In this document: positions 9,643 through 36,654 of the stretch, one piece after another | How the letters are laid out: the number at the start of each line of letters is the position of its first letter | Position numbering within the stretch: position 1 is the first letter of the stretch | Origin: Gammaproteobacteria bacterium RIFCSPLOWO2_02_FULL_57_10 | Lineage (GTDB): Bacteria; Pseudomonadota; Gammaproteobacteria; Pseudomonadales; Pseudohongiellaceae | Reading direction: 5' to 3' | DNA: 36,654 nucleotides | Assembly (NCBI GenBank): GCA_001802565.1 | Contig: MGYS01000009.1 | Location: forward strand, 21,118 to 57,771 | Notes under the pieces: generated by a model | Told to the model about the DNA's origin: nothing | Databases searched by the model: none | Seen by the model: the letters and a program-made list of their open reading frames with translations, nothing else | Program-made: the position numbers and the translations under genes

Positions 9643-9729
9643 GAAATTGACCGAGCGCGAGAACTTCGTCTACTTGTGAATCGGCATCTTGAAATGAACC
9701 CCGTTCATCTGAGTGCCAAACGTTGAACA

Positions 9730-10137
9730 TCACACCATGAGTGCGACACTCAATGCGTGTACCTCCAGCTTCAGCTCCAGGAGAGTCTTGTCACAATCTT
9801 GCACAATATGTGCAAGACTATCCCGCAGCCTTTCACTATCGCCCTTTAATGCCAACTCTTCCACCACAGACAACCTTGACGCTACGCGGAAAGCACCAAT
9901 GCTCTGCGAAGAAGACTTCATCTTGTGAGCAAGGGAGACAACTGACCCCACGTCTTCCGGCAGCGAGATTCGTCCAAGCAGTCCAATCAACTCTTGAAGT
10001 TGCTCCATGTATAGACTGTAGAACTCCAGCAACACTTTCGGCTCGTCGGTCTCGAGAGTATTTCTAAGCTTGTTGTTATCCAGATGACTCTTTGCGGCGC
10101 TGTCGACGCTGATCTGCCGATTAGTGTTCATAACCAT
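9730..10137 (-). CDS. Hpt (histidine phosphotransfer) domain protein
   Basis: Hpt signature LAHKMKSSSQSIGAFRVA; ORF extends to 10188 but Met at 10137 (MVMNTNRQ) starts just after the response-regulator stop at 10142. Confidence 0.82.
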   Translation of the reverse strand: MVMNTNRQISVDSAAKSHLDNNKLRNTLETDEPKVLLEFYSLYMEQLQELIGLLGRISLPEDVGSVVSLAHKMKSSSQSIGAFRVASRLSVVEELALKGDSERLRDSLAHIVQDCDKTLLELKLEVHALSVALMV

Positions 10138-10141
10138 CGCC

Positions 10142-10858
10142 CTACTCCGATTTCGCCGAAGATGAAACCAAAAAATAGCCATTCCCACGCACGGTCACTA
10201 TGTCAATGGCGCTGTCCAACAGAACGAGCTTTTTGCGAAGTCGACTTATCAGAACATCAACTGCGCGGTTCAATGGACCTCTCTCCATTCCGTAAATAGC
10301 TGAAAAAGCCCACTCGCGATCCACATAAGCCTCATCAGAGGCGAGAAACAGCGCAAGCAGTGCCAACTCTTTTTCCGTCAAACTTACTACACTGCCATGC
10401 GCTGATGACAGTCTGCGCTCGTCCCAGTTGATTCTTATCCCTGAGGACAATATTTCATTCGGGCGATAATTTGCGACTTTGCCTTCATACAGACGAAGAA
10501 CAGCCCCGATTCGCGCAACAAGCTCATCGATATCGTACGGTTTGGTAACATACTGATCGGCGCCCGCGTTCAGACAGTTGACTACGGTCCTCGTCCTGCG
10601 GTCGCCTGTCAGCATGATCACTGGAACACCGAGCGCTCCCTTGGCTCTCATGCATACATCCAGGCCGGAACACTTTTCATTCCCGAGAAAATAGTCGAGG
10701 ATAATCAGGCTCGGTGCTGCCCCGCCATCCAGCCAGGCAAAAAAATTGACGCTCTGACAGAATGAAATGCAGGAATATTTTCTGCGCTCAAGCTGCCTTT
10801 TGAGAAACAACGCAGCAATCTCATCGTCATCAAGTATGCAAATCAATCTCTTCTTCAT
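10142..10858 (-). CDS. OmpR-type response regulator (receiver + winged helix)
   Basis: ICILDDDEIAALFLKRQ, LIILDYFLGNEKCSGLDV, VIMLTGDR, YVTKPYDIDELVARI; C-term VSLTEKELALLALFL...VDVLISRLRKKL...IVTVRGNGYFL. Confidence 0.9.
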   Translation of the reverse strand: MKKRLICILDDDEIAALFLKRQLERRKYSCISFCQSVNFFAWLDGGAAPSLIILDYFLGNEKCSGLDVCMRAKGALGVPVIMLTGDRRTRTVVNCLNAGADQYVTKPYDIDELVARIGAVLRLYEGKVANYRPNEILSSGIRINWDERRLSSAHGSVVSLTEKELALLALFLASDEAYVDREWAFSAIYGMERGPLNRAVDVLISRLRKKLVLLDSAIDIVTVRGNGYFLVSSSAKSE

Positions 10859-11020
10859 CGATTTCTTTTCGAAAACTTCCCCTATGGGAAGTAGCTCACG
10901 TAATCAAGAATACCTTGTCCTGCTCAGCTGGAATGATATGCACACATGGCATTGATACAATTTTTTACATTCCTGCCAACGGCTCACTGCTACAATCTTT
11001 TCCGAAACGGGAGTCATTGT

Positions 11021-11287
11021 ATGCAAAATTCAAATGAAGCGAAAGCACTTGTAGCAATTGGAATGAATGGGGAGATGGTAATTTTGAGCGTGTCTCCTGA
11101 AAATTACGAACTGACTTTGGATGCAAAAACCTACCCCGCTGAGCTCGCCCTGTGGCCAAGTGCGGCACCCCTGCCTCGAGATCCCGGACTTTATGAATTC
11201 AAAGGTTACACCGCACTTGAGGTCTTTGACGACCTTTCACCAGTAACCGTTCATAGAGGTTCATTCGAACGCGTGGTTGGATATTGA
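11021..11287 (+). CDS. Small protein of unknown function (88 aa)
   Basis: ATG at 11021 (MQNSNEAKALVAIGMNGEMVILSVSPENYELTLDAKTYP...); stop overlaps the upstream-most possible start of the next kinase; the ORF-track start at 10946 is less likely. Confidence 0.6.
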   Translation: MQNSNEAKALVAIGMNGEMVILSVSPENYELTLDAKTYPAELALWPSAAPLPRDPGLYEFKGYTALEVFDDLSPVTVHRGSFERVVGY

Positions 11288-13839: not shown

Positions 13840-13914
13840 TACCCGTGCTTTTCCACGAGGCCCAAACGCTCGCTATGAATCAAGAAGTGCCACATCAGAC
13901 AACAGGAAGACACC

Positions 13915-15186
13915 ATGCCCGTAAAACAAGATCTACCACTGCTGCTGGTTGTAGATGACGATTCGTTTTTCCTTAAGCAGGTCGCATTTACTGCACAGTC
14001 TATCTACCGAGTCATTCAGGCATCGACACTTGGAGAAATCGGGAATTTGCATTTTAGCAACCTGCACACATTGATTCTTGATCTCAATATCCCAAACGGC
14101 AATGCCGTTGAATTCATGCTCTCCTTCCCGGACATCGCTCATCGCGTCAACCTGATCATCATCAGCGGGCTGGACACAAAGACTGTCAATCTATGCGCCG
14201 CGATCGCGGAAAACACACAATTCAAATCGGTACACTCCATCAAGAAGCCATTCAATGTCAGCGCTCTCCGAGACCTGCTGGAAAGGCTTGCATGCTTCAA
14301 AGATATTTCCCCGAGATCCAGCGCTGTTGCAGCTCAAGAGAAGAGGACCACAGCCGCCGAAGTCAGGACAGCACTTGCAAACAAAGAGTTTGTGACCTAC
14401 TTTCAGCCTCAGATATGCTCGAAGGAGGGACGTTTTTCCGGAGCGGAAGCGCTGATAAGGTGGCGCCATCCAGCCAAAGGGATATTACAGCCGTCTCTTT
14501 TTATCGAGCTACTGGAGTCTCAAGAGTTGGCGTTGCCGTTTACGCTTTACGTGGCCGAAGACGCTGTGCGGCGATTCCAATCGATAGAGCCCGAGCTTCG
14601 CAGGGGCGCTAAGCTCAGCATCAATGTCCCACATGCAGCGCTTGAAGAGCCTCGCTTCACCGAACAGATTTGTGAAATTCTGGATAGGCATTCCTTCCAC
14701 CCATCCGATTTAGTTATAGAGATTACAGAACGCGGTGTGCGTGGAAATTCCTGCGCAGACATCAGCTCAGTAGCTATGATGAGGATCAAGGGTATTGAAA
14801 TATCGATCGACGATTTTGGGACTGGCAACTCGGGATTCGAAAGGCTTAAAACCCTGGCGGTGGATGAAATCAAGATTGACAAGATGTTCATTGGAGACAT
14901 CTGCGAGTCCAGAACCTCTCAACTGCTGGTGCAATCCATTATGCAGATGGCAAAGACATTAGACATAAGAGTGGTTATCGAAGGAATTGAGACGGAAGAC
15001 TCTCTACGCTGGCTGCGTGAACAAGGGAATTTCATTGCGCAAGGTTATTATTTCTCCAAACCGGTATCATGCAGCGCATTGATTGAATTTCTCCAGAAAC
15101 TTAACCAAAATTCGATCTCTCCTTGCAACAATATTTTCGGCGAGTCCTGCGCGATCGACACCTATCCGATATCGGTGGGTCGATAG
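13915..15186 (+). CDS. Response regulator with C-terminal EAL (c-di-GMP phosphodiesterase) domain
   Basis: REC LLVVDDDSFFLKQ...LDLNIPNG...IKKPF; EAL FQPQI...GAEALIRWRHP, SINVPHAAL, VIEITE, IDDFGTGNSG, EIKIDKMFI, VIEGIET, QGYYFSKP, so the main catalytic residues appear present. Confidence 0.92.
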   Translation: MPVKQDLPLLLVVDDDSFFLKQVAFTAQSIYRVIQASTLGEIGNLHFSNLHTLILDLNIPNGNAVEFMLSFPDIAHRVNLIIISGLDTKTVNLCAAIAENTQFKSVHSIKKPFNVSALRDLLERLACFKDISPRSSAVAAQEKRTTAAEVRTALANKEFVTYFQPQICSKEGRFSGAEALIRWRHPAKGILQPSLFIELLESQELALPFTLYVAEDAVRRFQSIEPELRRGAKLSINVPHAALEEPRFTEQICEILDRHSFHPSDLVIEITERGVRGNSCADISSVAMMRIKGIEISIDDFGTGNSGFERLKTLAVDEIKIDKMFIGDICESRTSQLLVQSIMQMAKTLDIRVVIEGIETEDSLRWLREQGNFIAQGYYFSKPVSCSALIEFLQKLNQNSISPCNNIFGESCAIDTYPISVGR

Positions 15187-21390: not shown

Positions 21391-24300
21391 TCATGGAGTC
21401 GGGCGGTTGTAGATTTCCTGCCAGTTGATCACGCGGTCGTGATTGCGGAACTGGCCGAACTCGATCTGGCCGCGGGGGCTCTCGTCGTAGTCGTCGCCCA
21501 CATCGTCCCACTCGAAGCTCAAATACTCCAAGCCCGCCGCAGTCAGATTCAGTTCAACGTCCACGGTGCCACTGTTACCTTCTCCAGGCGCTGATGTCAG
21601 CAATGGATCGTCCGTCGGGGACGGCACATTCTCCAGCCCTTGTGTCTGCCCTTCCAGGAAAGTCACTGTATCCGGCGACGTCAGTGTCGTTTCTCCATCG
21701 GCAAGTTCACCCGTATAGGTAGTCCCCACGTAACTCAGATCATCCACGTCAATGAGCGTGCAGTTGTCGAGCGAGTTGCGGACGAATTCACTGCCGTTGA
21801 AGTATTCGACCAGGAACGTCAACGCCAGGTCTTCCGTTTCAGGACCATAGGCATTGTTGACGATGATTCTGCCATAGCGGAACTCATGTTCATCAATCAG
21901 GTAATACTCGAAATCACCTGGTTCCGGATCGCCATCATCAAGATCGACATTGAGAACACCTGTGGATGCCAGCCCATTGCGCTCAGGATCGATCGTCACC
22001 CCGGCATCACCATTCTCTGCAGGCAGGAAAGCAATCTGCATGTTCGGATAAGGGCCATCCGGTGCCGCAGGATCATTGCGTTCGAACATCATGTTGCCAG
22101 TCAGCGTGAGAATGCCGTTATTCCACGTTCCAGCGAAGGATGTCGGCATGCTCACATTGGCGAGTCGCGTCGTCATGTCTTCATCGCTCGCGGCGTCGAC
22201 ATCACGAATCGCGACCAGGCCAAGTTCTGCAAACGTGTCGAGCTTGGCGTAGTTGCCGCGATAATTCACCGTAGTGTAGTTGCCACTGTCCGACAAGCCC
22301 TTGGCCACCAACTCCAGCTCCAGACCGAAGGCTTCATTCATGTACGTGAAAACTGAGTCTGGCACGCAACCGGCGTTTGCACGTGGATTCAGAACAGCGT
22401 CCGTCACCGTGAACAGATTCGGATAGAAACGTCCTACATTGCGCACATAACCGCGAATGTTGACACCGGAATTCAGGTAACCCGTCTCCACTTCACTGGC
22501 CTGACCGACGATACGTGCGCTCAGATCGATGATACCCACTTCGTTGTAGGCGATAGTGTGCGTCACGGCACCTGAAGCGAAACCATCAAAGAACTTGTCA
22601 ACCAACTGATTGGCAGCGCGTATGCCACCCTGCGCTTCTACCTTATTCTCATCCACCGTCAGCATGACGCGATAATTGGTCGCATCGGAATCCAGCTCGA
22701 AGTTCGGCGTCGGGCGATTATTCGCCAGGCTCGCATCGCTGTCGGGAATGCCATCATTGGCATTATCGCCGTTCAAATTGGAGTCATCATCCGCCGCCTC
22801 CCAGCCCACTGAGGTGACAGTAGTATTGAAAGACTCCCCGGCGATCTTCCACAACGTTCCAGTGTGGTCTGCAGCATAGGAAGCATGGCCCGTACCACTG
22901 TTCTGACGCCCATTGTCGAAATCGATATCAAATCCGAAGGGGCGTACGATGAACTGATTACTGGCGCGGTCCAGAGTGTCTCCCGACTTGGTGGCCAGCA
23001 CCGGATCAAGATTATCGCTGAGTGGAATATCGAAGCGCGTGTGCAGGCGCATTCTGCCAACGTCGGTGTACTCAATGACGATCGGCGCACCGGGTTCGCC
23101 GCTGTAGTCCTGCAACGTGATGTCCAGAGCAGTGTAGTTGACAGGGTCACCATCATCGATGAGTGGCACTTCGGTGTCGTTGACTTCGAAGGTCTCGGGG
23201 TCAAGACCCGTGTTGTTGCATGTGCCTGGGTCGTCACACTCTGCTGCGAACTGAAACTGCAGTGTCTCTCCCACGTCGAACAAGGGTTCGCACACACCAG
23301 GATTGGTACCGGAAGAATTGACAGCCTGCACGATCAGCACGGATGCCAGCGGATTCACGCTCGAGGGCTTGCTCGCGATCTGCAGTGGGATGGGCGTCAC
23401 ATCATCGTTGGTGCCAATGTTCAGAATACGCAGCCCCACCTGGGACACGGATAGACTGGGATCCTCACCCGGTGAAAGTTCCGACTGAGTACCATCCGAG
23501 ACATTGACGCTGACAACTTCCGGGTCTGTTGCGGGGCCTGTGTAATCAAAACGAATGGAGACTGAGTTTTCATCTACCGGGAAAGTGTAGGTAGCCGTTC
23601 CATCCACGTCAGTGCCGGTATCATTCAGAGTGCCATCGCCAACCAGCAGACGCGACCAGCTGCCACGGCCGGTGCTGGTGGTCAGATTGATGCTGATGGC
23701 ACCTGGCAGCACCGGATTATGATTGGCATCGTGCGCAGTAATAGTGACATCCGACGCCAGACATGCAACGCCATTCACGACTCCCGAGGTCGATCCATTG
23801 ATGTCCACCTCGTAATGATGCACACCAAGTGGGCTGACGTCGCATTCATTCGTAAGCGCTGTAAGCGTCACATTATCTATCGTGAACGATTTCCCGCCCA
23901 ACGTGTAACCCTGATTGACTCGAAAGCGAATCTGCGTAGTAGCGGTAGGCGCCGCTGCCAGCACATCTGAAACATTCAGACTACCGGAGGAGGCGCTTCC
24001 TGAGGCAGTGTTCGGCAAGGGAGCAGTTCCTCGTTCGTAAAGTGCTATCTGCTGCCACGCAGGATCTCCAACAGACGTGTGACGGGCTTCCACTATGATT
24101 TCATCACTCCCGATATCCAGCCCCGCCCAGGTATAGTCGAAAGACAGCATCAGATCGGAGACCAGTGTCGCTCCGCTCAGATCAATTGCGCGCGCCAGAC
24201 TCGGTTGAGACGTGCCACCGGTGGCAGTGAACACCGCGGTTCCTCCTGAAACCCTGCCAAAGTTATCGACGTAATTCAGTGTGACCCCTTCGTCGTACAC

Positions 24301-27300
24301 AAACGTGGGCGCCTCAGCACCTGTTCCAGGAGGATGCCCTTCACGGGCAAGACCGTTGGTCACATCGACGTTCACAGTGCCAGCGACAGACTGCGACAAG
24401 GCAAGCACCACCGTACCAAGATCGCCTGGCACATACGTGTAGATAGCGATACCGTCGTCTGCAGTGCCATTGTCAATCGTTCCATCACCATCGATCAGTA
24501 CCCAGTCACCTATTCCCGTGTTGGTGGTCAGGCGGATTGACCCGAAATAGTCGGTATCACGACTGTGAGTCAACCCCTCATGTTTGCTGATGCGGATCTC
24601 CATTCCCGTGGCAGAGCACACGGTTGCCTCACCACCAGCGTTGGAGATACGGAAGTGTCCAACGTAGCTGTCTTCGATCAGATGCAACGCATCGATCAAA
24701 AGGTCGGCTTCATTTCCGGTGGATTCGAAGATTCCCAGCGCGACGTTGCCAAGGAAGAGATTCTCCGTATCCCTGTCGGGATCGTTCACAACGCTCTCAC
24801 CATCAAGGTTGATGCTGGTGACATCGTCGCGCGTGAACAGCGTTCCGGTTTCGGGCTCCCACTCGACGCCGACACCAATGGTGATTGCGTCGTCGGAATC
24901 ATTCGCCGAAATGATCAGCGTATCGAGGTTCCCGTCCGCCGTGTTCGGATCATCGCGCAGATAAAATCCGTTGATACTCACGTTCGTCGTGTCGTCGAAA
25001 TAGTCAGCGCCCGCGAAGAAGATGCTCGCATCTCCCGTGTCGGGATCGTACAGGATCAGATCGGCGCTGGTGAACGGTACGCCATCGATTGTGCTGCCGC
25101 CCGCTGCCGGGGTCGCCGCAAATATGATGGTGCAGTTGTAAGGGGCACTTGGCGCGCAATCGCCCTGCAAATAGACCGCCGTAATATTGACGCCACTCGC
25201 TGGCCCGGTGCCACCGAAAATGGTGGAGCCATCGAACAACATCGTGGCGGTCATCAGGATGGGATCATAGACCACCAGGTCTCCCGGCTCGAAGGCCAGG
25301 TTATTGGTGCCGACAGTGCTGCCCGCTTGATCTGCCGAGATCACGATGTGACCATTCTTCATCAGATGCACCGCATCGGCATCGTTGACGTTGTAGCCCA
25401 GCGCGCTGTTGTCGAAGAACATCGTCGCCGTGTCGGTAACGGGATCATAGATGATGTAGTCATCGTCTTCGAAATTGCTCAACCCCCCAATGGTTGTCTG
25501 CTCACCCAAGGAGCTCACGGAGATAAGGAATTTCTCCTGCGAAGCCACCGGCGCGGCGACAATCGCTGTGATATCCGTGTCGGAGTTGTTTCCTGGTACC
25601 ACATCGAAATTGTATTGTCCCGCCGTGACTGTCGCGGTGTTGGTCACCTGATATCCGCCAGATCCGGTGACGTCGACCGTCAACAGAATGTCGGTACTCT
25701 GACCAACACCAAGCGAGCCGGCAAACGTGCAGGACAGATTGCCCGGCGGCGTGGGGCATACCCATCCTGTACCCGCTGCAGACAAGAATTCCACGCCTGC
25801 GGGAGGCTCCGTATCCGTCACGGTTATTGTGGCAGTTGTTGCATCCGGTCCGTTGTTGGTCACGCGCAAGGTGTAGATGCCTTCCTCATTTTCCTCAAGG
25901 ATGTCATCGACAAACTTGTCGATCGTCAGATCCACTTCGACGCCCTTCACGACGGTAGTCACGCTGTCGACGTTGTTGTTGTTCTCCTGTTTGTCATCCA
26001 GATCGTTGATGTCGATGTTGCCGCCTTCCAGATCGTTGTAGTTGTCGAACTGGGGTGAACGGACACAGGTCTCTGGGTCTGGAATCAATCCGGTGGCGGC
26101 GGTGCATGGAAGCAACGGAGTCGGGTCCTCCGCACTGGGTCCGCCCGAATGTAATACGCGAACGCTGTTCTTGGCATTGTTGTTCTGTAGTGGGAACGAT
26201 CCGGTGCCGCCAATGTTCACAGTGGCGGTAATGACAGGCAGATCCTCATTTGCGGCCAGTTGAAAGTCAGTCGCGCCACCCGTCCACTGCGAGATATCCA
26301 TTGTGCAGGTGAAAGCACCCGGCGACGACACTATGTCAACCGTGCAATCCCAGTCGGTACCGCTGACATCACCAGCACTGTCGAAGGTCATGCCGGCAGG
26401 CAATGTATCGGCGACCACGACATACCCGTTGGCAAATCCACCATCCAGACCGCCGTTACCGTTGTTGGTGACAGTGAACTGGTACGTGCCCGTGCCATTT
26501 ACCTTGAACGTACCAACCTGGGACTTGAACACTTCGATGTCCGCCACCGGGAAGTTGGTGACGCTGATGACCTCTGAGATCAGCATCACGAGGTCGGCCT
26601 CGGCACTGTAGCGAGTCGTGATCTGTTCTGCCTCGGCACCGAGAAAACCGAACTCGTACAGTGTGTCTCCCGGATTGGCTCCCTGGAAATAATGTGTATC
26701 AACGTCGAGCCCCCAGGAATTACCGATGCGAGGGCCGCCAGTCTCCGCCTGCGGGCCGGGAGCATCGATCTCATAGCCATCGCCGTTCAGCCCACCAGTG
26801 CTGTCGAATTCAAAGAAACCAGTGGTGCCGTCCAGGTAATAGACCGGACGCGTGATAGTGGAATTGAACTCTTGTCCCAATGGATTCAGAGTTGACGTTA
26901 CCACATTGAAGTCTGTGGAGTTCGGGGCATCCTGGATGCCAAGTCCTTCTTCCTCATTCACGGCGTTCAACGTTTCGTCACCTTCGATCGTAATGTGGGT
27001 GACCTGGCCATTTGGCAGATTGTTGGCGACGTCATGCGATGCCATGCGGAAGTTGCGTGGCACCAGAGTGAAGGAGGAATTCTGGAAAGGCTGGAAACCA
27101 TGGAACATATTCAGCACTCGCAGTCGTTCATCTTCATGTTCATACACCACGATCATGGCCCAACCGCCTGCGCACGCCTGGGACAAATTCCACGGACTGC
27201 CAATCTGCACGGCCAAATTCTTGAGTGTGTAGGAACCTGATCCAGTCACCAGATTGGTGACATCCCTGTACGCAGCAAAGTAGTCAAGATTGTTACTGTT

Positions 27301-30300
27301 GCCGACATCGTCGATAAGGAAAATCTGCTGAGCGGTAATTGCAATTTCGGATCCGGTTAGGCCGAAATTCACATTTTCATCCACTTGATCGAGCGCATCG
27401 TCACCGGCGGACGACCAGTAGAGATAGGCCGCCTCGATCTGAGCTCCTACCGGAAGCGTCAGCGTAGCCGAAGAGCCGACCGCCGGGTCTACAAAATTGC
27501 ATCCAAGCGGCGCAGGAGAATCCTCATTGTAGGTCGTGCGCAGCGTAGCGCCTATGGCACGATAGCTCATGTTGCCGGAGAAGGTCTGAAATAGAATGAC
27601 CGGCTCATAATTACCTGCCAACGGAGAGCCAGCTACCAGTGGCTCAAAGGCGGCAACAACCTGAGAGTATACAGGCGCACTGACATTCAACGTCTCCGAT
27701 GCTGTAACGATGCCGGCCGTTGGTTGGCGACCGGCTGCACCGGCGAAACGGGACTCTGCACCTGTCGGGTTGGCGACCGGTGCAGGTGATTGTCCGAACT
27801 GCCTGACCATGAAAGCAGTTGGCACGGGACTGCTGTAAGCGCGCGCATTGTTGAAAGTGGTTCCGTCCATGTTGGTGGCCATCACCAGCAGCGCGTTGTT
27901 GGAGGTAGTCGTGATCGTCGTGGACACTACAGACGAATTGGTGCCGGTTGTCCCATTCAGAGGTCCGGTATTCGCCGGTGACTCGACAGCCGGAAACTCC
28001 TGCTTGACCTGATCAATCGCCAGCATACACATACCGGCACCTGCGGCACCTCCTGTATAGGCTCCGGGGTATGCCCCTGCTGCCGTCGGCAGATCGGCTT
28101 CCAGGATTCCCCACATCTCCACCACGCTGCCTTCACCTGACGTCGTGGTCTCACGTCTGATCAATGTCATTGGCTCGCCATCGAATGTCGCTCCACTGAC
28201 AGCCGGTCCTCCACCCGTGGCCGCGGCAATCATCATCAACACCATACGGCTGCGCTGATTGGCAACAGCGGTCTGTGCAGGGATGGTCAGATTGGTAGTG
28301 GTGCCTACAACACACGCTGCGGTGCCGACAACATCCGGCAGACATGAGCTTACAAGCAGATTGGGGTCGAAACTCGCATTGACCACGATCGGACCATCTG
28401 TCGCGTTGAAGTTCACGCCCTCAGCATGTGGGTTGCTGAAATTCAGAATGACCGCCCCATTATCTGCGTCAGCAAAAGCGTAAGTCGCAACGCCATTGTC
28501 GTCGCCCGCGCTATCCGTGAGCACGCCAGTGCCTGTGTTCACCAGCCAGTTGCCATGGTTGGTGCTGGTCGCCAGCGTCATCGTGCCGATGTAGTCCACT
28601 GCAACACCACCGGTGCTGTTACGCACGGTGAACGTCACAGCTTCCTGTTCGCAAGCCGTTGACTGCCCGCTGTGACTGATCTCGAATGTACAGGTCGCGA
28701 CTGTGATGTTGAGGTCATAGGCATTGGCGGAATTGCGCGGATCCAGTGTCGTGCCATCCGACACGTTGATATTGACCACGCCCGAAGAGGTCGTGTGGAG
28801 GAAATCCAGCGTTACGGTGCCGGAGTCGCCACTGTTGAACAGATACGTGGCATTACCGTCTTCGGCAACCGGGTCGGTCAGGGTGCCAAGACCATTGCCT
28901 GTACGCCACGTTCCATCACCGGTTGTCGTGCTGAGATTGATAGTGCCAGTGTAGTTGGTAATCGTGGTGCCACCACTGTTCACCAGAGTGATTGTCACGG
29001 CTTCGATGGAACATACATCCATGGTTCCGCTGTGCGTGACGCGGAATGTGCATGCGGTAATGGTGAGATCGGGGTCGTTGGGGCTTGCAGGAGCAGTAAC
29101 CCCTCCTGCGACCACGTTGAAGTTTGCCGTTCCGGCGCCAGCCTGATAGTTGAGAAAAATCTCTCCACCGTCAGTTGCCAGGAAACCGTAGGTCGCCGCA
29201 CTGTCGCCCAGAGCACCATTGTCAAATGTACCGTTGGCGTCGGTGAGCACTGTTGTCTTCGACCAATTACCTCCGGTCACACCCGAAGCGCTCAAGTTGA
29301 CGTTGCCAACGAAATTCACAAGCGCGCCGGTGGAATCCACTACACGAATTCTGATCTGCTCCACGGCACAGACATCGGCCGCACCATCATGATTGATCTG
29401 GAACGCACAGGCGCCCACGTTCATGCTGAGTGCGTAACTCTCTGTCACTACCGCGCCCCCCACCGCATCGAATGTGATGACTCCCACAGTGCTGGTGGAG
29501 AAATTAAGAATCACCTGACCGTCGTCGGCATCCAGGAAAGTGTATTGCGCGATGCCATCGTTGGTGGTCAGATTGTCGAATGATCCGACGCCGGTATTGA
29601 GGGTGTAGTTGCCTGTTCCACCACTCGAGGTCAGCGTTACTGTGCCAGTGAAATCGGTCACGAGATCACCGAAGTTGTCACGCACGGTAATGGTGATCGG
29701 CGTGGTTGCGTTGCAGGTGCCATGTGATGTCGCATGGGAAATTTCGAAATGTGGCGCCGGCGCAGGCTCGATACCGATGGTTTGTGTGACCCAGTTGGTC
29801 GCGTTATTGGTGAAGGCAGCTGTTCCCGATCCTCCCGCACTCTCCTGATTCAGATACGCACCGGCGCCGTACATGATGCCTGCGTTATCCTGCGTGATGT
29901 TGCGGTACCCTGTGATGACAGTCCCCGGATCAGAGACCATCCCTCCAGCACCGTTAACCGCAGCAAGACGCACGATGAGTGTGTCGTCCAGCGTTGTCGT
30001 AATCGCGGGAGCTAGAGCGTTGGCGGTGTTGCTGACCGTGGGGGTGCCGGCGATGACAACGCCGGAGGCACCGGTGTAGCGCATCATGTACGCATAAGTG
30101 ATGGCGCTGTTGCTGGTGGTGAATGTGTAGGACGCTGGTTCGGAGCCTCCTGCCACACGAGTCATGATCGTCAGGTTTGCTCGTGCGTTGCCGTTGCCGC
30201 CACCGGTGCCGGCATTGGTGATATTGCTCCAGCCGGCCAGCGCGTTGACGTTCGTGCCATTCTGGTTACTGGCGAACACGGCGACCAGCAGATCCCCTGC

Positions 30301-33300
30301 CGCAGTGCTCGGTGGCACATTCAACAACACGGATGTAGAGGCAGCGCTGATTTCTGTCGTGGTACAACCCATCAGTTCCACGAGCTGCGAGCCCACGATA
30401 CCACCTGTGAAATTGCAGTTCGCTGGAGGCGCATTCACGCCAATGATGCCGGACGTGACGGCGCCCCACCCTGTCGCAGTAAATTGCAGTGTACGATCTC
30501 CGGGGGTACCAGTAATCATCAGATCAGTGAAAGCAGCAAACCCGGCACCATTGGTGGTAGCGGTGAGCGTGCCGCCAAGTGTGCCACCACCGGATGCGAT
30601 TGCCGCTGTGACGATCAGACCACTGACAGGTGAGCTGTTGCCGTCCAGCGCCTGCACCACCGGTTGCTGGGCAAAGGCGAACCCACTCGTCACAATGGTC
30701 GATGCCTGCTGGGTAATGGCAAGGTTGGAGAACACCGTAATGGCATTGCTGTCGACGGAAGCCCAGTTGGTCGCCGTGAAGCGCAACACGCGATTGCCAG
30801 GCGCGCCCGTGATGCTCAGGTTAGTGAATGTAGCGAGTCCGTTGGCATCAGTGGTGGCGGTAACGGTACCGCCCAAAGTGCCTCCGCCGGAGAATATCGC
30901 CGCTGTCACCTGCAACCCACTGACTGGGTTGCCCGCGCCATCGAGGGCTTCAATCACTGGCTGCTGGGCCAGCGCAACGCCGCTCCCCACACTCGTTGAT
31001 GGCTGCACGGATACCGCGAGCGGTGATGCCACCACGGCAACCGTATTCGAATCCACCGAGTTCCATCCCGTTGCCGTGAAGCGCAACACGCGATTGCCCG
31101 GGGCTCCGTTGATGGCAAGGTCTGTGAACGTTGCCAGCCCCGAGCCGTTCGTGGTCGCCGTCAACGTACCACCCAACGAACCACCACCCGACTGAATGGC
31201 AACCGTCACCTCCACTCCGGCGACAGGATTCGAGGCGCCATCAAGCGCGAGAACGACAGGCTGTGGCGAGAGTTGCTCACCACTTTCAACACTCGGATCA
31301 GGCTGGGTATTCAGCGTCAGCGTGGACGGCTGGATGGTAATCGTATTGGAGATCACCTGGCTCCATCCGGGAGCGGTGAAGCGCAGAGTATGGGCACCAG
31401 ATGCCCCCGTGATGAACAATCCACTGAAACTGGCCAAACCACTGCCATTGGTGGTTGCAGTCAGTGTGCCGCCAAGCGTGCCAGGGCCGGACGCTATCGC
31501 CACCGTCACTTCAACCCCCGCAACCGGGCTGCCATTGTTCGCCAGAACAATGGGCTGCTGCGCGAACACGACTCCCAGATTCGCACTGGCCGAAGGTTGT
31601 TGCTGCATCGCCAGCGGTTGCAAGGCTGCTTGTACCGTGATGGTGCCCGAGGTCACTGGTGTCCAACCGGTCGCGCTGAAACTGAGCGTGTGGGCGCCAA
31701 GCCCGGTGATTGCCAAATCGTCATACGTGGCATAACCGTTGACATCTGTTGTACGGACCACGGTGCCACTTAAACTTCCGGTTCCGGACGCGATAGCGGC
31801 CGTGACCTCCACGCCCTGAATCGGTGTGCCGAAACCATCTACCGCGCGAATTACCGGCTCCTGGGGAAAAATCGTTCCACTGTTGACCGTCGCGGAGGGC
31901 GCCGTAGTGATGGCCAGCGTCGAAGCCGTGACAGTAATGGTGTTCGAGTCCACCGGATTCCAGCCAGTGGCACTGAAGCGCAGCACGCGCGGCCCGGGCT
32001 CTCCTGCAATCCTTAGGTTGGTGAAGGAAGCGAGACCACTGCCGTTCGTAGTGGCGGTGACGGTGCCCTCCAGCGTTCCACCGCCAGACAGAATGGAAGC
32101 TGTCACCAACAGGCCACTGACCGCAGCCCCATTGTTGGCAAGTATTACGGGTTGCTGCGCCAGCGTGGCTCCCCTTTGTACGCTGGCTGAGGGTTGGGTC
32201 TGGACCACCAATGACGGCTGAATGGTCACTGTGTTCGACACCACCTGCCCGGTGCCGCCCGCCGCCGTGAATGAGATGGTGCGCGCCCCTGTGGCACCCG
32301 TTATGACCAGGTTCGAGAAGGTGGCAAAACCGCCTCCAGTGGTGACGGCGCTCAGCGTTCCGCCCAGTGTGCCTGCACCGGAGGCCAGTGCGGCATTGAT
32401 GGTGATGCCATCAACCCCGATTCCTGCGGCGTTCTGCAGCCGAATGATGGCAGGCTGCGCAATGGCCACGCCAGACGTTGCGGTTGATGAGGGCTGTTGG
32501 GTAATGGTCAGGGTCGGTGCTTCGTAACGCACAATGACGATACCGCGAGCGCCGGTACCGGCTGCTTGGCCATTACCCCTGGATGCTCCGCCGCCGCCGC
32601 CGCCGGTGGTCGCCGTGACCGTAGCGTTGCCACCAATACCGTTACCACTGGAGCCAGCCCCTCCACCGCCGGCTCCCCCCGGTCCTCCTGTACCTCCAGA
32701 GCTACCGCCACCACCACCGGCGTAAGTCACTGCAGATCCCGAAATCGACGACGTGTAGCCAGCGCCACCATCACCACCGTCTGAGCTGGCCGCATTCTGA
32801 GCAGCCAACGGCGCGCCAGTGACCCCGCCGCCACCGCCGCCACCGCCGGAGTTCGTGGCGTTGCTGTTGCCTGCACTGGTACCTCCATCGCGTCCTTGCG
32901 AGCCCGTACCACCGGTTCGGCTGGTACCGTTGCTACCAGCACCGCCACCGCTACCACCATTCAAACCATTGGCTGTACCAGCACCGCCGCCACCACCGCC
33001 GGCGGCGGTAACGGCTGATGGGGCCGAGAAGGTTGAAGCCGTACCGCTGTTACCACTTGTGCCATTCGATCCAGGCGCAGCACCGCCCGTACCAATCGTG
33101 ACGTTGGTCGCCCCGGTCACTGTGACGCTGGACTGATAGTTCACACCGCCGCCACCGCCACCGCCACCACCTGCGTTGTTACCTGCTTGGGCTCCGCTGC
33201 CACCGCCGCCCACTACCAGCACTTCCACCTGCGTCACACCTGGCGGAGGAACAAACTGCTCGGTTACCGCAGTGTTGGTAAAGGTATGAACGCGGAAATT

Positions 33301-33513
33301 GCCATCGGTGGTAATCGTGCCGCCGGAGCCCTGAATCCGCACCGGCCCTGGCACTTGTGCAGTCACCATGCTGACAACGGCAAGCGCCGCAGAGAGGAAA
33401 AGAGTGGTACTGACCAGCCGACGCAGCAGCAGTCTCAGGCGCCCATGCTCATGACCTGAAGCCCCTTTCCCGGGAACGTCTGGTGCATTGTTATTGGCGG
33501 CATGGAGAGTCAT
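21391..33513 (-). CDS. mshQ: Giant MshQ-like surface protein (4040 aa): signal peptide, Gly-rich domain, Ig-like repeats, other repeat modules, DUF11-type domains, C-terminal DUF6701-like domain
   Basis: Single uninterrupted ORF; N-term LLRRLVSTTLFLSAALAVVSMVTAQ; C-term PDSVFTYMNEAFGLELELVAKG...GQIEFGQFRNHDRVINWQEIYNRP resembling the MshQ C-terminal domain; positioned downstream of mshC/D/O/P-like genes. Confidence 0.85.
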   Translation of the reverse strand: MTLHAANNNAPDVPGKGASGHEHGRLRLLLRRLVSTTLFLSAALAVVSMVTAQVPGPVRIQGSGGTITTDGNFRVHTFTNTAVTEQFVPPPGVTQVEVLVVGGGGSGAQAGNNAGGGGGGGGGVNYQSSVTVTGATNVTIGTGGAAPGSNGTSGNSGTASTFSAPSAVTAAGGGGGGAGTANGLNGGSGGGAGSNGTSRTGGTGSQGRDGGTSAGNSNATNSGGGGGGGGVTGAPLAAQNAASSDGGDGGAGYTSSISGSAVTYAGGGGGSSGGTGGPGGAGGGGAGSSGNGIGGNATVTATTGGGGGGASRGNGQAAGTGARGIVIVRYEAPTLTITQQPSSTATSGVAIAQPAIIRLQNAAGIGVDGITINAALASGAGTLGGTLSAVTTGGGFATFSNLVITGATGARTISFTAAGGTGQVVSNTVTIQPSLVVQTQPSASVQRGATLAQQPVILANNGAAVSGLLVTASILSGGGTLEGTVTATTNGSGLASFTNLRIAGEPGPRVLRFSATGWNPVDSNTITVTASTLAITTAPSATVNSGTIFPQEPVIRAVDGFGTPIQGVEVTAAIASGTGSLSGTVVRTTDVNGYATYDDLAITGLGAHTLSFSATGWTPVTSGTITVQAALQPLAMQQQPSASANLGVVFAQQPIVLANNGSPVAGVEVTVAIASGPGTLGGTLTATTNGSGLASFSGLFITGASGAHTLRFTAPGWSQVISNTITIQPSTLTLNTQPDPSVESGEQLSPQPVVLALDGASNPVAGVEVTVAIQSGGGSLGGTLTATTNGSGLATFTDLAINGAPGNRVLRFTATGWNSVDSNTVAVVASPLAVSVQPSTSVGSGVALAQQPVIEALDGAGNPVSGLQVTAAIFSGGGTLGGTVTATTDANGLATFTNLSITGAPGNRVLRFTATNWASVDSNAITVFSNLAITQQASTIVTSGFAFAQQPVVQALDGNSSPVSGLIVTAAIASGGGTLGGTLTATTNGAGFAAFTDLMITGTPGDRTLQFTATGWGAVTSGIIGVNAPPANCNFTGGIVGSQLVELMGCTTTEISAASTSVLLNVPPSTAAGDLLVAVFASNQNGTNVNALAGWSNITNAGTGGGNGNARANLTIMTRVAGGSEPASYTFTTSNSAITYAYMMRYTGASGVVIAGTPTVSNTANALAPAITTTLDDTLIVRLAAVNGAGGMVSDPGTVITGYRNITQDNAGIMYGAGAYLNQESAGGSGTAAFTNNATNWVTQTIGIEPAPAPHFEISHATSHGTCNATTPITITVRDNFGDLVTDFTGTVTLTSSGGTGNYTLNTGVGSFDNLTTNDGIAQYTFLDADDGQVILNFSTSTVGVITFDAVGGAVVTESYALSMNVGACAFQINHDGAADVCAVEQIRIRVVDSTGALVNFVGNVNLSASGVTGGNWSKTTVLTDANGTFDNGALGDSAATYGFLATDGGEIFLNYQAGAGTANFNVVAGGVTAPASPNDPDLTITACTFRVTHSGTMDVCSIEAVTITLVNSGGTTITNYTGTINLSTTTGDGTWRTGNGLGTLTDPVAEDGNATYLFNSGDSGTVTLDFLHTTSSGVVNINVSDGTTLDPRNSANAYDLNITVATCTFEISHSGQSTACEQEAVTFTVRNSTGGVAVDYIGTMTLATSTNHGNWLVNTGTGVLTDSAGDDNGVATYAFADADNGAVILNFSNPHAEGVNFNATDGPIVVNASFDPNLLVSSCLPDVVGTAACVVGTTTNLTIPAQTAVANQRSRMVLMMIAAATGGGPAVSGATFDGEPMTLIRRETTTSGEGSVVEMWGILEADLPTAAGAYPGAYTGGAAGAGMCMLAIDQVKQEFPAVESPANTGPLNGTTGTNSSVVSTTITTTSNNALLVMATNMDGTTFNNARAYSSPVPTAFMVRQFGQSPAPVANPTGAESRFAGAAGRQPTAGIVTASETLNVSAPVYSQVVAAFEPLVAGSPLAGNYEPVILFQTFSGNMSYRAIGATLRTTYNEDSPAPLGCNFVDPAVGSSATLTLPVGAQIEAAYLYWSSAGDDALDQVDENVNFGLTGSEIAITAQQIFLIDDVGNSNNLDYFAAYRDVTNLVTGSGSYTLKNLAVQIGSPWNLSQACAGGWAMIVVYEHEDERLRVLNMFHGFQPFQNSSFTLVPRNFRMASHDVANNLPNGQVTHITIEGDETLNAVNEEEGLGIQDAPNSTDFNVVTSTLNPLGQEFNSTITRPVYYLDGTTGFFEFDSTGGLNGDGYEIDAPGPQAETGGPRIGNSWGLDVDTHYFQGANPGDTLYEFGFLGAEAEQITTRYSAEADLVMLISEVISVTNFPVADIEVFKSQVGTFKVNGTGTYQFTVTNNGNGGLDGGFANGYVVVADTLPAGMTFDSAGDVSGTDWDCTVDIVSSPGAFTCTMDISQWTGGATDFQLAANEDLPVITATVNIGGTGSFPLQNNNAKNSVRVLHSGGPSAEDPTPLLPCTAATGLIPDPETCVRSPQFDNYNDLEGGNIDINDLDDKQENNNNVDSVTTVVKGVEVDLTIDKFVDDILEENEEGIYTLRVTNNGPDATTATITVTDTEPPAGVEFLSAAGTGWVCPTPPGNLSCTFAGSLGVGQSTDILLTVDVTGSGGYQVTNTATVTAGQYNFDVVPGNNSDTDITAIVAAPVASQEKFLISVSSLGEQTTIGGLSNFEDDDYIIYDPVTDTATMFFDNSALGYNVNDADAVHLMKNGHIVISADQAGSTVGTNNLAFEPGDLVVYDPILMTATMLFDGSTIFGGTGPASGVNITAVYLQGDCAPSAPYNCTIIFAATPAAGGSTIDGVPFTSADLILYDPDTGDASIFFAGADYFDDTTNVSINGFYLRDDPNTADGNLDTLIISANDSDDAITIGVGVEWEPETGTLFTRDDVTSINLDGESVVNDPDRDTENLFLGNVALGIFESTGNEADLLIDALHLIEDSYVGHFRISNAGGEATVCSATGMEIRISKHEGLTHSRDTDYFGSIRLTTNTGIGDWVLIDGDGTIDNGTADDGIAIYTYVPGDLGTVVLALSQSVAGTVNVDVTNGLAREGHPPGTGAEAPTFVYDEGVTLNYVDNFGRVSGGTAVFTATGGTSQPSLARAIDLSGATLVSDLMLSFDYTWAGLDIGSDEIIVEARHTSVGDPAWQQIALYERGTAPLPNTASGSASSGSLNVSDVLAAAPTATTQIRFRVNQGYTLGGKSFTIDNVTLTALTNECDVSPLGVHHYEVDINGSTSGVVNGVACLASDVTITAHDANHNPVLPGAISINLTTSTGRGSWSRLLVGDGTLNDTGTDVDGTATYTFPVDENSVSIRFDYTGPATDPEVVSVNVSDGTQSELSPGEDPSLSVSQVGLRILNIGTNDDVTPIPLQIASKPSSVNPLASVLIVQAVNSSGTNPGVCEPLFDVGETLQFQFAAECDDPGTCNNTGLDPETFEVNDTEVPLIDDGDPVNYTALDITLQDYSGEPGAPIVIEYTDVGRMRLHTRFDIPLSDNLDPVLATKSGDTLDRASNQFIVRPFGFDIDFDNGRQNSGTGHASYAADHTGTLWKIAGESFNTTVTSVGWEAADDDSNLNGDNANDGIPDSDASLANNRPTPNFELDSDATNYRVMLTVDENKVEAQGGIRAANQLVDKFFDGFASGAVTHTIAYNEVGIIDLSARIVGQASEVETGYLNSGVNIRGYVRNVGRFYPNLFTVTDAVLNPRANAGCVPDSVFTYMNEAFGLELELVAKGLSDSGNYTTVNYRGNYAKLDTFAELGLVAIRDVDAASDEDMTTRLANVSMPTSFAGTWNNGILTLTGNMMFERNDPAAPDGPYPNMQIAFLPAENGDAGVTIDPERNGLASTGVLNVDLDDGDPEPGDFEYYLIDEHEFRYGRIIVNNAYGPETEDLALTFLVEYFNGSEFVRNSLDNCTLIDVDDLSYVGTTYTGELADGETTLTSPDTVTFLEGQTQGLENVPSPTDDPLLTSAPGEGNSGTVDVELNLTAAGLEYLSFEWDDVGDDYDESPRGQIEFGQFRNHDRVINWQEIYNRPTP
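30430..32526 (-). repeat. Seven tandem ~100-aa (~300-bp) Ig-like repeats inside mshQ
   Basis: Recurring pattern ...QPSASV.SG..LAQQPV..A.DG...PVSG..VTAAI.SG.GTLGGT.TATT...GLA.F..L.ITG..G.R.L.FTATGW..V.SNTITV; repeat starts near 32520, 32218, 31925, 31625, 31325, 31027 and 30728. Confidence 0.9.
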
Positions 33514-33757: not shown

Positions 33758-34051
33758 ATGGAACTGGAATACAAAGTCGTACAATCGACGACGCCGCTGT
33801 TCGCCACCAGCAAGAAAATCGACGAGATCATGGCCGAGGAATCCAAGGCGGGCTGGCAGTTGGTCGAGAAGTTCGACAACTACAAGATGCGCCTGCAGCG
33901 CGACGTCAGTCATCGCGGCAACGACAAGAATCTCGCATTTGATGCCTACAGAAGCCAGGTAGGGGTGAACAACTTCATCGTTTACGGCATCACAGCCGCT
34001 GTTACAGTTGGCGTGGTGTACGCGATTTTCGTTCTGGTGGGCGCCGTTTGA
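33758..34051 (+). CDS. Small DUF4177-like protein with C-terminal TM helix
   Basis: 97 aa: MELEYKVVQSTTPLFATSKKIDEIMAEESKAGWQLVEKF..., hydrophobic C-term NFIVYGITAAVTVGVVYAIFVLVGAV. Confidence 0.7.
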   Translation: MELEYKVVQSTTPLFATSKKIDEIMAEESKAGWQLVEKFDNYKMRLQRDVSHRGNDKNLAFDAYRSQVGVNNFIVYGITAAVTVGVVYAIFVLVGAV

Positions 34052-34063
34052 TTCACTGCCCCC

Positions 34064-34149
34064 TGTGGGAGCGGGCCCTGCCCGCGATGACTGTGCCTCT
34101 CTGAATCAATGCGGAACACAGACAATCGCGAGCAAGGCTCGCTCCCACA
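34064..34149. repeat. Inverted pair of REP elements (BIME-like) between convergent genes
   Basis: TGTGGGAGCGGGCCCTGCCCGCGA (34064-34087) and inverted TCGCGAGCAAGGCTCGCTCCCACA (34126-34149). Confidence 0.88.
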
Positions 34150-34160
34150 AGAATTCAGGG

Positions 34161-34610
34161 TTATTCATCAAAGCTGGTGCGCACCTGCACCGTTCGGGTC
34201 ACATCAGCACAGGTACCGACACTGGTAATCGTGTAGTACTCCACGTCGTCGACCGCTGCATCCACCTCACACGTCACCGATATTTCGCAACCACCAAGAC
34301 CGTCCACCGTCAGTTCGTACTCGCGCGGGCCTGCATCGCAGATAGCCGTCGGAGCAACGCCATTCTGATACAACGGAAACTCCTCTGGCGGAAACAGCGC
34401 GTTGAGCGCAAACCCGGCACCGGACTCCGCCGCGTAGAACGCTCGCGTCAACAACACCTCCTCCTGAAACGTTTCGGAATTCTGCGACACCAGCTCATTG
34501 ATCGCCACCGCCAGCAACGCCAGTATCGTGATCACGAACACTGCCGCGGGCACGCCGATGCCCCGCTGATACCTCCGACCACTCTTCCTGCTCTTCATGA
34601 AGTGCGTCAT
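34161..34610 (-). CDS. mshP: MshP-like MSHA pilus biogenesis protein
   Basis: MTHFMKSRKSGRRYQRGIGVPAAVFVITILALLAVAINEL; position after the mshO-like gene with ATGA overlap. Confidence 0.78.
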   Translation of the reverse strand: MTHFMKSRKSGRRYQRGIGVPAAVFVITILALLAVAINELVSQNSETFQEEVLLTRAFYAAESGAGFALNALFPPEEFPLYQNGVAPTAICDAGPREYELTVDGLGGCEISVTCEVDAAVDDVEYYTITSVGTCADVTRTVQVRTSFDE

Positions 34611-35590
34611 GGCACATTCCTCATGAGCACTTCATGCTTGAGGGTGACCACATCGCCCTGGTCCGTGAAATTGAGATTCAGGGAGATGATCGCGTTGCGG
34701 CGCAAACTTTGCTCGACCAGCGCAAACGGCTCAAGATCGAGGGTAGCGTTGTCAAGACGATCGGTGATCAGGTCACGACCGTCAACGGCGTTGTCCGGCA
34801 AGCAGGCGACTGTATCAGGATCACACTGCGTTGCGCGAAACCCGTAGTTCTCATACCGATATATCTTGTCATCCACCACGCAGAAACTGACAGGGTTGGA
34901 CGCCAGGTACATACGCTGCACGGGCGAGCGGCGCGCGAAACGGAACTCAGAGTCACTGTCCAGGTCGTCTGCACCATCCAGCAGACAAACGGTCGCGCGC
35001 CCCTCTTCATCCGGGTCCATTCCGGCCAGCGCATCGGTGCAGACATCCGTCGGCGGCGTTAAATCGTTGTCATAAGTATCGCGCAGTTTGCCTACTTCCA
35101 CGATCGGGCCCACGCCTGCGGTGGACATGCCGGCATACAGCTCGGCGGTGTCAATCGGGTAGATCACCGCATAAACATTATCTTCGCCCAGGTCCGAGGC
35201 GTCTTCCATCTGCAACGACGGATTGAAATCGATGACCTCGAATCGCGAGCTGCCAACGTCAGTGAACGATGGATTCAGATACGTGGTAACCCCAAGGAAT
35301 GGCACCATCTCCAGACACTGGTTACCATCCACTGCCGCAGTCACACGCACGCTGTTGGGTACGGCGTTGTGCAGCTCCAGCGCCAGCCTGTCGATCACCG
35401 TGCGGCCGGAACTCGCGAGTCGATTGCGATTCGCGCTGGAAGCAAACCCTTCGACAGAGTCTCCGATGAACGAGACTATCCCCATCGCCATGATTGCCGC
35501 CAAGACAATGGTCACCACCATCTCGATGATGGTAAACCCTCTGTGGGAGCGAGCCCTGCTCGCGATTCCTCCGCGCTCCTGTGTACCCAT
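34607..35590 (-). CDS. mshO: MshO-like minor prepilin
   Basis: Start ATG at 35590 (MGTQERGGIASRARSHRG|FTIIEMVVTIVLAAIMAMGIVSFI); type IV prepilin N-methylation motif; start overlaps mshD stop (TGATG). Confidence 0.8.
   Translation of the reverse strand: MGTQERGGIASRARSHRGFTIIEMVVTIVLAAIMAMGIVSFIGDSVEGFASSANRNRLASSGRTVIDRLALELHNAVPNSVRVTAAVDGNQCLEMVPFLGVTTYLNPSFTDVGSSRFEVIDFNPSLQMEDASDLGEDNVYAVIYPIDTAELYAGMSTAGVGPIVEVGKLRDTYDNDLTPPTDVCTDALAGMDPDEEGRATVCLLDGADDLDSDSEFRFARRSPVQRMYLASNPVSFCVVDDKIYRYENYGFRATQCDPDTVACLPDNAVDGRDLITDRLDNATLDLEPFALVEQSLRRNAIISLNLNFTDQGDVVTLKHEVLMRNVP
35542..35568. repeat. Single REP element inside the mshO leader-coding region
   Basis: TGTGGGAGCGAGCCCTGCTCGCGATTC, same core as 18513-18536. 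Confidence 0.88.
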
Positions 35591-36297
35591 CAGAAATTCG
35601 CCTTGTAGACACTGAACGGCCACCCGCTTTCATTCGTCGGATGCCGAATCGTCACGGTAATCAACTTGGCGTCCTCGGCATTATCCAGATCCGTCTGATC
35701 CGCCTCGACCGGTTCGTCACTGTCCACGCCGAGAAATTCCTCCTCTCCCGCTGCGCCTACTTCCAGATAACGCACCGAAATCTCGACGCTGAAATTCTCG
35801 TAACCCTCGCGCTCCTGACCTTCTGCATCTCGCAACACATTGAAAGGCGCCAGTTGCCCCCACCCTTCGTACAGTTCGTGATAGTCATCGACATCGTCGA
35901 AATCGACGCGATCATCCTCGTCACTGTCAGGCCGCCCGCCAAGTCCATCTTCCGGCCCGAACAGTATCTCGTCGGTACAGTTTGTACGGCACGGTGGAAT
36001 ACCGCGAGGGTTGGATGCATCGTCGAAACGCTTGCCAAAAATTTCATCCAGATAACTCTGTGCAAGTGCCACTGCACGCGTTTCCGTCAGCGTATTCGCA
36101 CTGCTGCGCAACCCATTGGAAATCATTTGCGTAATGCCGACCAGCGCTATGCCCAGAATGACGATTGTGATGACCATTTCAATGATGGTGATACCACGCT
36201 GCCTTACTCTCGATTGTACGCTCTGTGGGAGCGAGCCTGTCCGCGAAAAATCGCTTGCAAGGCAAGCTCCCACAGGACGGAAATTCTTTCTACGCAT
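35590..36297 (-). CDS. mshD: MshD-like minor prepilin
   Basis: ATG at 36297 (MRRKNFRPVGACLASDFSRTGSLPQSVQSRVRQRG|ITIIEMVITIVILGIALVGITQMI); prepilin motif G|ITIIE; 8-nt overlap with upstream gene stop. Confidence 0.8.
   Translation of the reverse strand: MRRKNFRPVGACLASDFSRTGSLPQSVQSRVRQRGITIIEMVITIVILGIALVGITQMISNGLRSSANTLTETRAVALAQSYLDEIFGKRFDDASNPRGIPPCRTNCTDEILFGPEDGLGGRPDSDEDDRVDFDDVDDYHELYEGWGQLAPFNVLRDAEGQEREGYENFSVEISVRYLEVGAAGEEEFLGVDSDEPVEADQTDLDNAEDAKLITVTIRHPTNESGWPFSVYKANF
36224..36275. repeat. Inverted REP pair inside the mshD leader-coding region
   Basis: TGTGGGAGCGAGCCTGTCCGCGA (36224-36246) facing TCGCTTGCAAGGCAAGCTCCCACA (36251-36274). Confidence 0.85.
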
Positions 36298-36654
36298 CGC
36301 AGTTCCCCGTATAGGCAAAACCTGCCGCAGAAATGCAGATCGACATGACCGGATCGTTGTTCAGACAAATGCGCATACCAGTGGTGACATCGACCGGATA
36401 GGCCGGAGTCCCATCGACAACTCCGCCAATCATGAGATCACCGAGTGCGTCGAATTCAACATGCAGGGGTTTGTCGTCAGTGGCCACGTTGTCGGAATCC
36501 GGTGGAGTGCTGCAACTGGCAAGGACATCAACATCGGCACTCAGGAGGCCCGCTGGGAGTGCCGTTGTCACCGGGCTGATCAAATTGCCGGCGCTGTCTT
36601 CGAGGCTGATCACAAGGTCGTCGCCACTCGGCTGCAGTGTTACCACAACATCCT
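36290..36654 (-). CDS. mshC: C-terminal part of MshC-like pilin/pseudopilin (truncated by window edge)
   Basis: Reading frame is open to the right edge (DVVVTLQPSGDDLVISLEDSAG...ICISAAGFAYTGNCDA*); identity inferred from position upstream of mshD-like gene and from the ICISAAG-type C-terminus. Confidence 0.55.
   Translation of the reverse strand, partial: DVVVTLQPSGDDLVISLEDSAGNLISPVTTALPAGLLSADVDVLASCSTPPDSDNVATDDKPLHVEFDALGDLMIGGVVDGTPAYPVDVTTGMRICLNNDPVMSICISAAGFAYTGNCDA

Follow-up and report, generated by a model that had tools for sequence, protein, structure and literature searches.

The 36,654-nucleotide stretch of DNA analysed here (the window), from a gammaproteobacterium of the family Pseudohongiellaceae, holds an intact gene for a 4040-residue MshQ, and this giant protein is best explained as the probable adhesin at the tip of an MSHA-type (type IVa) pilus. 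The original prediction had described the protein as a mosaic. That description was right and can now be sharpened, as comparison with related giants points to a constant core, carrying a DUF3344 domain and two DUF11 domains with predicted Lys-Asp-Asn triads, and to a variable head that appears to be exchanged from genus to genus.

Identity of the Protein and Its Place in the MSHA Locus

The protein is almost certainly MshQ, as first read, because the profile evidence and the gene order agree. The DUF6701 (PF20419) match at the C-terminus reached 304 bits against a cut-off of 27 and covered positions 32–577 of 577 (E 3.8e-90); the predicted MshQ-type C-terminus is thus present, and the lack of DUF6701 similarity that had been named as a possible refutation was not seen. 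Furthermore, the gene is the final one of a complete MSHA pilus locus, after the mshO and mshP homologues. Upstream on the same strand, the MshD-, MshO- and MshP-like genes lie inside the window, followed beyond it by a major-pilin-like gene and by MshF-like, MshG, MshE, MshN, MshM, MshL and MshI/J/K-like genes; downstream of mshQ are homologues of ntrC, ntrB and glnA. The distance between mshP and mshQ is ~650 bp, with an opposite-strand gene inside, so mshQ is likely not co-transcribed with mshP and probably has its own promoter.

Could a giant mshQ stand outside any MSHA system? The giants with enough flank, from isolates and MAGs, were located beside mshO/mshP or at the same mshQ site. The apparent exception was one genome (G028), in which mshP abuts ntrC and the full msh locus is on the same contig as the giant, about 20 kb away; a giant outside any MSHA system was therefore ruled out in this case. 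DUF6701 and MshL co-occurred with an odds ratio of 15 (p 1.3e-5, kinship ignored), which, like the location of the giants in msh loci, favours a link with the pilus. In the sample, four genomes with an MshL-like secretin lacked DUF6701, and eight showed the reverse, several of them being fragmented MAGs.

Domain Architecture

The open reading frame was exact as first noted in its coordinates, strand and length. The product has a computed mature mass of 406 kDa and a computed pI of 4.05, and the modules found along it are listed in Table 1.

Table 1. Window coordinates of the giant mshQ gene, its modules and its neighbours.
Feature	Position	Strand	Residues	Basis
MshD-like (PilV-type) gene	35590-36318	-		N_methyl prepilin motif
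MshO-like gene	34607-35623	-		N_methyl prepilin motif
MshP-like minor pilin-like gene	34161-34610	-		Synteny in relatives
Small DUF4177-like gene between mshP and mshQ	33758-34048	+		
Giant mshQ gene	21391-33513	-	4040 aa	ATG start
Signal peptide (predicted; long n-region, then hydrophobic stretch)	33355-33513	-	About 1-53	Sequence; same position in homologues
Head: glycine-rich domain (Gly_rich_2)	32518-33330	-	62-332	Pfam
Head: seven Ig-like repeats	30436-32511	-	335-1026	Iterated repeat HMM, each i-E < 1e-32
Head: Thr/Ala/Asn-rich module (TAN)	29764-30393	-	1041-1250	Own HMM
Core: four Cys-containing Ig-like repeats	28342-29748	-	1256-1724	Repeat search
Core: beta-sandwich module MOD2	27634-28326	-	1730-1960	HMM + AlphaFold2 model
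Core: DUF3344 domain	26524-27618	-	1966-2330	Pfam
Core: first DUF11/CLIPPER-like domain (predicted isopeptide triad K2330, D2369, N2449)	26014-26547	-		
Core: second DUF11/CLIPPER domain (predicted triad K2533, D2567, N2625)	25639-26001	-	2505-2625	
Core: YDP/FFDG array, propeller-like	24664-25626	-	2630-2950	Sequence + AlphaFold2 model
Core: fifth Cys repeat	24298-24654	-	2954-3072	Repeat search
Core: beta-sandwich segment	23839-24258	-	3086-3225	HMM + AlphaFold2 model
Sixth Cys repeat	23437-23802	-	3238-3359	Repeat search
DUF6701 (MshQ-type C-terminus)	21412-23355	-	3387-4034	Pfam E 3.8e-90
Conserved Asp-rich loop DDDSNLNGDNANDGIPD	22741-22791	-	3575-3591	
Conserved C-terminal tail IEFGQFRNHDRVINWQEIYN(RPTP)	21394-21465	-		

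Most of the architecture that had been proposed was recovered. Behind the putative signal peptide, the Gly-rich domain matched Gly_rich_2 at residues 85–331 (Pfam E 3.7e-19; 1.3e-21 when the segment was scanned alone), the iterated search returned exactly the seven Ig-like repeats suggested, and both the Thr/Ala/Asn-rich module, which our own HMM detected in at least 12 giants, and the four Cys repeats were present. The head matched no known lectin or ligand-binding family. When the segments were scanned singly, the large domain that had been marked by a 'VILFQTFSG' stretch proved to be Pfam DUF3344 (PF11824), with a partial match (positions 42–170 of 275) above the cut-off (E 4.5e-7, 30.2 bits vs 27.2).

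Other parts of the original prediction stood in part or fell. In the same segment scans, the second of the two proposed DUF11-type domains passed the PF01345 cut-off (E 5.4e-10, 40.0 bits vs 24.6), whereas the first remained below it (E 0.0013, 19.5 bits). Two further Cys repeats were indeed found, at residues 2954–3061 and 3238–3359 in the repeat search, but they are not adjacent, as a beta-rich segment lies between them; most short MshQ proteins also bear a repeat of the sixth type ahead of DUF6701. The YDP/FFDG array was confirmed and has three four-stranded repeats in its AlphaFold2 model, its propeller-like resemblance being putative. On the other hand, the suggested kinship of the module at 27613–28340 (MOD2) with that at 29760–30430 (TAN) found no support, as the profile comparison was not significant (probability 1.4%, E 0.04).

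Within DUF6701, the Asp-rich loop follows a DDxxxDGxPD pattern that is conserved throughout the family and is a possible Ca2+ site; PilY1 function is also calcium-dependent (PMC8833165). Similarly, most family members end in an FGxYxGxxRxIxWxE-type tail. This tail is conserved yet of low confidence in the model when alone, which makes it a candidate docking peptide.

The C-terminal 1141 residues were modelled by AlphaFold2 as tandem beta-sandwiches with a mean pLDDT of 84, and Foldseek matched this model to generic tandem Ig/macroglobulin rods, invasin among them. The model of the middle region was weaker (pLDDT 65), and its Foldseek matches, mostly to integrin-alpha and complement proteins with TM < 0.2, were not interpretable; the sole one that we used was a short match to the CLIPPER structure 9IFR (TMt 0.69). 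A search by sequence for solved structures returned none for the core or the C-terminus, DUF6701 included.

A Constant Core and an Exchanged Head

Giant MshQ is conserved throughout one bacterial family. Some 20 further complete giants, of 3217–4079 residues, match it in the core modules and in their order; they occur in the same genus and family, cultured Pseudohongiella included. The claim that the protein is far more elaborate than a minimal MshQ is borne out by its length, which is about three times the class-wide median (1280 residues in 73 DUF6701 frames). Class-wide, only one other DUF6701 frame was longer than 1813 residues (3756 residues, L090 in genome G216). It adjoins mshE/mshG homologues and its long N-terminal part is unrelated to the present giant; as the two share only the C-terminal end, it would have grown independently.

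The core comprises ~2800 residues in all complete giants and runs in the order Cys repeats, MOD2, DUF3344, DUF11, DUF11, YDP array, Cys repeat, beta segment, Cys repeat and DUF6701. Its conservation equals that of DUF6701 itself, about 50% mean identity. The heads, by comparison, were of several types: Gly + Ig ×7 + TAN; Gly ×2 + Ig; Gly + Ig; Gly + Ig + Gly ×2; and one or two TAN modules. On a tree of the C-terminal half of 26 giants, at least nine changes of head state are required. Furthermore, two giants from different genera (in G003 and G032) are 64.6% identical in their heads and 47.3% in their cores, whereas another pair (L104 and L106) is 83.8% identical in the cores and 41.8% in the heads. 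The simplest reading of these comparisons is that heads have been exchanged between lineages.

Simpler architectures were also found. An MshQ of 1718 residues (L092) joins a related Gly-rich N-terminus to DUF6701 and, of all the modules that lie between these two in the giants, has only the last Cys repeat; a free-standing exoprotein of 1061 residues (L129) carries the DUF3344-DUF11 block and lacks DUF6701. Together they suggest growth by insertion of ready-made blocks.

Some frames deviated from this pattern. Two DUF6701 frames of ~8500 residues in one genome (L055 and L056, G053) were discarded as runs of N; this genome does have two DUF6701 copies about 28 kb apart. In another (L127), the giant mshQ is present as two overlapping frames of 1448 and 2489 residues, from a frameshift or a sequencing error. 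A second, short DUF6701 protein of 920–1020 residues (L041, L043 and L045) is encoded outside the MSHA locus in three Pseudohongiella-group genomes (G016, G023 and G027); in G016, the gene for it lies close to a type II secretion-like cluster that has pseudopilins of its own.

Predicted Isopeptide Triads in the DUF11 Domains

DUF11 has been solved as the CLIPPER domain, with a Lys–Asn isopeptide bond and a catalytic Asp (PMC12617251). The triad predicted in the second DUF11 domain has a spacing of 34/58, compared with 33/58 in 9IFR (PMC12617251), and was found as Lys-Asp-Asn in every distinct giant except that of G028, in which all three residues are lost. We consider it likely that the bond forms in this domain. 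The relocated giant mshQ of G028 (L046, L130 and L131) lacks the triads of both DUF11 domains.

The triad of the first DUF11 domain is complete in 13 giants, partial in five and absent from 16 (L034 among those without it), and would thus be gained or lost as a unit, in a nearly all-or-none manner. In a sign test on eight phylogenetically independent pairs, the Lys and the Asp changed together seven times and never oppositely (p 0.016). Such covariation is expected if the predicted isopeptide bond forms and matters, and from the covarying triads we predict that covalent bonds brace a protein which would have to withstand the force of pilus retraction.

Does Giant MshQ Tip the Pilus?

MSHA pili drive surface attachment in aquatic bacteria. 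MshQ is counted as one of those MSHA components whose function is unknown (PMC9815625), yet published work terms it a putative MSHA adhesin, and its length varies between Shewanella strains (PMC7439477). Vibrio cholerae without mshQ has less surface MSHA, with pili that still retract (PMC7096442), and in V. fischeri mshQ alleles influence host specificity (PMC4094467). The original view of the present protein as an adhesin or pilus-associated exoprotein, putative here, fits these genetics by analogy (PMC7096442, PMC4094467). Our literature search found no published experiment that locates any MshQ at the pilus tip.

We regard it as likely that giant MshQ is an exported cell-surface or pilus adhesin, and we model its action by analogy with PilY1 (PMC13190605). 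The protein would pass through Sec into the periplasm, where the conserved C-terminal DUF6701 with its short tail would bind the minor-pilin complex of MshD, MshO and MshP. This complex would prime the pilus and then be pushed out via the MshL secretin, so that the docked MshQ would come to lie at the tip with its N-terminal head outermost, a placement that we hold to be moderately likely. The middle of the protein would form a beta-sandwich rod in which cysteine pairs and one or two DUF11 (CLIPPER) isopeptide bonds act as braces, and such a covalently braced rod could withstand the pull when the pilus retracts. The head, with its Gly-rich, Ig and TAN modules, would set the reach and the target, and would be swapped by recombination. 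That a constant part (DUF6701, the tail and the braced core) can be told apart from an exchanged head suggests one end for docking and another for binding.

PilY1/PilC, the tip adhesins of type IVa pili, are built on the same plan, with a C-terminal docking part that is fixed and an N-terminal end that varies, and are likewise coded beside minor pilins; in PilY1 the conserved C-terminus sits on the minor pilins and the variable N-terminus forms the tip (PMC13190605, PMC7541494). The PilY1 C-terminus is a beta-propeller, however, whereas DUF6701 models as tandem beta-sandwiches and the propeller-like array of the giant is internal. Membership of the PilY1 family was ruled out by this different C-terminal model fold and by the missing profile match (no PilY1 match in the giant in Pfam or NCBIfam).

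With the MshQ of the MSHA pilus in Vibrio, Shewanella and Aeromonas, the giant shares the C-terminal DUF6701 (PF20419) and the preceding Cys repeat, the position of last gene in the msh locus and the character of a secreted, beta-rich protein. It differs from typical MshQ in its modular head, and the short MshQ proteins examined lack its conserved ~2800-residue core with DUF3344, DUF11 and the YDP array. Fibrillar adhesins with DUF11 (CLIPPER) domains, such as Acinetobacter B9T28_05395, have the same Lys-Asp-Asn triad spacing and a long stalk; the giant, in contrast, has only two DUF11 copies, and its C-terminal DUF6701 replaces the usual anchors. DUF3344-DUF11 exoproteins of the L129 type share the succession of these two domains, but they are free-standing and have neither Cys repeats nor DUF6701.

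Could giant MshQ instead be a surface-anchored fibrillar adhesin, located at the outer membrane or released, that uses the MSHA machinery for export only? A signal peptide, an Ig/DUF11 stalk and a head make up the architecture of fibrillar adhesins, of which DUF11 is typical; at 406 kDa the protein would be a very large pilus tip, and the DUF3344-DUF11 block also stands free in L129. We nevertheless judge this reading unlikely, as neither a sortase motif nor an RTX/T1SS signal nor an autotransporter barrel turned up in Pfam and NCBIfam searches of the protein, the C-terminus is taxonomically its most widespread part and accompanies the msh genes, and the loss of mshQ reduces pilus number in V. 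cholerae (PMC7096442). Less probable still is that MshQ is mainly an assembly or priming factor of the MSHA pilus, with a long N-terminal part that is a neutral or structural spacer and binds no target. The same V. cholerae phenotype of fewer surface pili is consistent with such a role, and DUF6701 is the part common to short and giant proteins; however, the core is as conserved as DUF6701, and repeated replacement of the head and its movement between genera would be unneeded for a neutral spacer.

A more specific and tentative picture of the tip adhesin is that in Pseudohongiellaceae and their neighbours MSHA pili might end in a ~400-kDa, covalently braced fibril of roughly 100 nm with a head exchanged like a cassette. 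If so, giant MshQ would represent a polymorphic adhesin of the pilus tip and perhaps, by its inferred size and length, the largest type IV pilus cargo, and exchange of the head between genera would make it a recognition module under diversifying pressure.

Gene Integrity and Flanking Features

The giant is not an artefact, a possibility that the original prediction had named as a refutation: although the draft genome has runs of N nearby, one of which splits the mshE homologue on the same contig, fusion of adjacent genes by misassembly or frameshift is practically inconceivable, since the window carries no N, the 4040-codon frame is uninterrupted, and full-length collinear giants are present in about 20 other assemblies, including those of the isolates P. 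nitratireducens SCS-49, whose giant (L100) has 3375 residues, and Pseudohongiella sp. O18. Across the window, no tandem DNA repeats or RNA families were found.

The small gene between mshP and mshQ had a borderline DUF4177 match, and for most of the giants whose flank is long enough it occupies this gap, opposite in strand, at about 52–90% identity. Between it and mshP, at about 34060–34155, lies a REP-like inverted repeat (TGTGGGAGCGAGCC...GGCCCGCTCCCACA); similar REP palindromes are scattered in Pseudomonas genomes. The MshE homologue on the same contig has a c-di-GMP-binding MshEN domain, and positions 6523–15186 of the window are dense in sensory genes, which encode a CHASE/MASE1 hybrid kinase, a GAF/PAS hybrid kinase, response regulators and an EAL protein.
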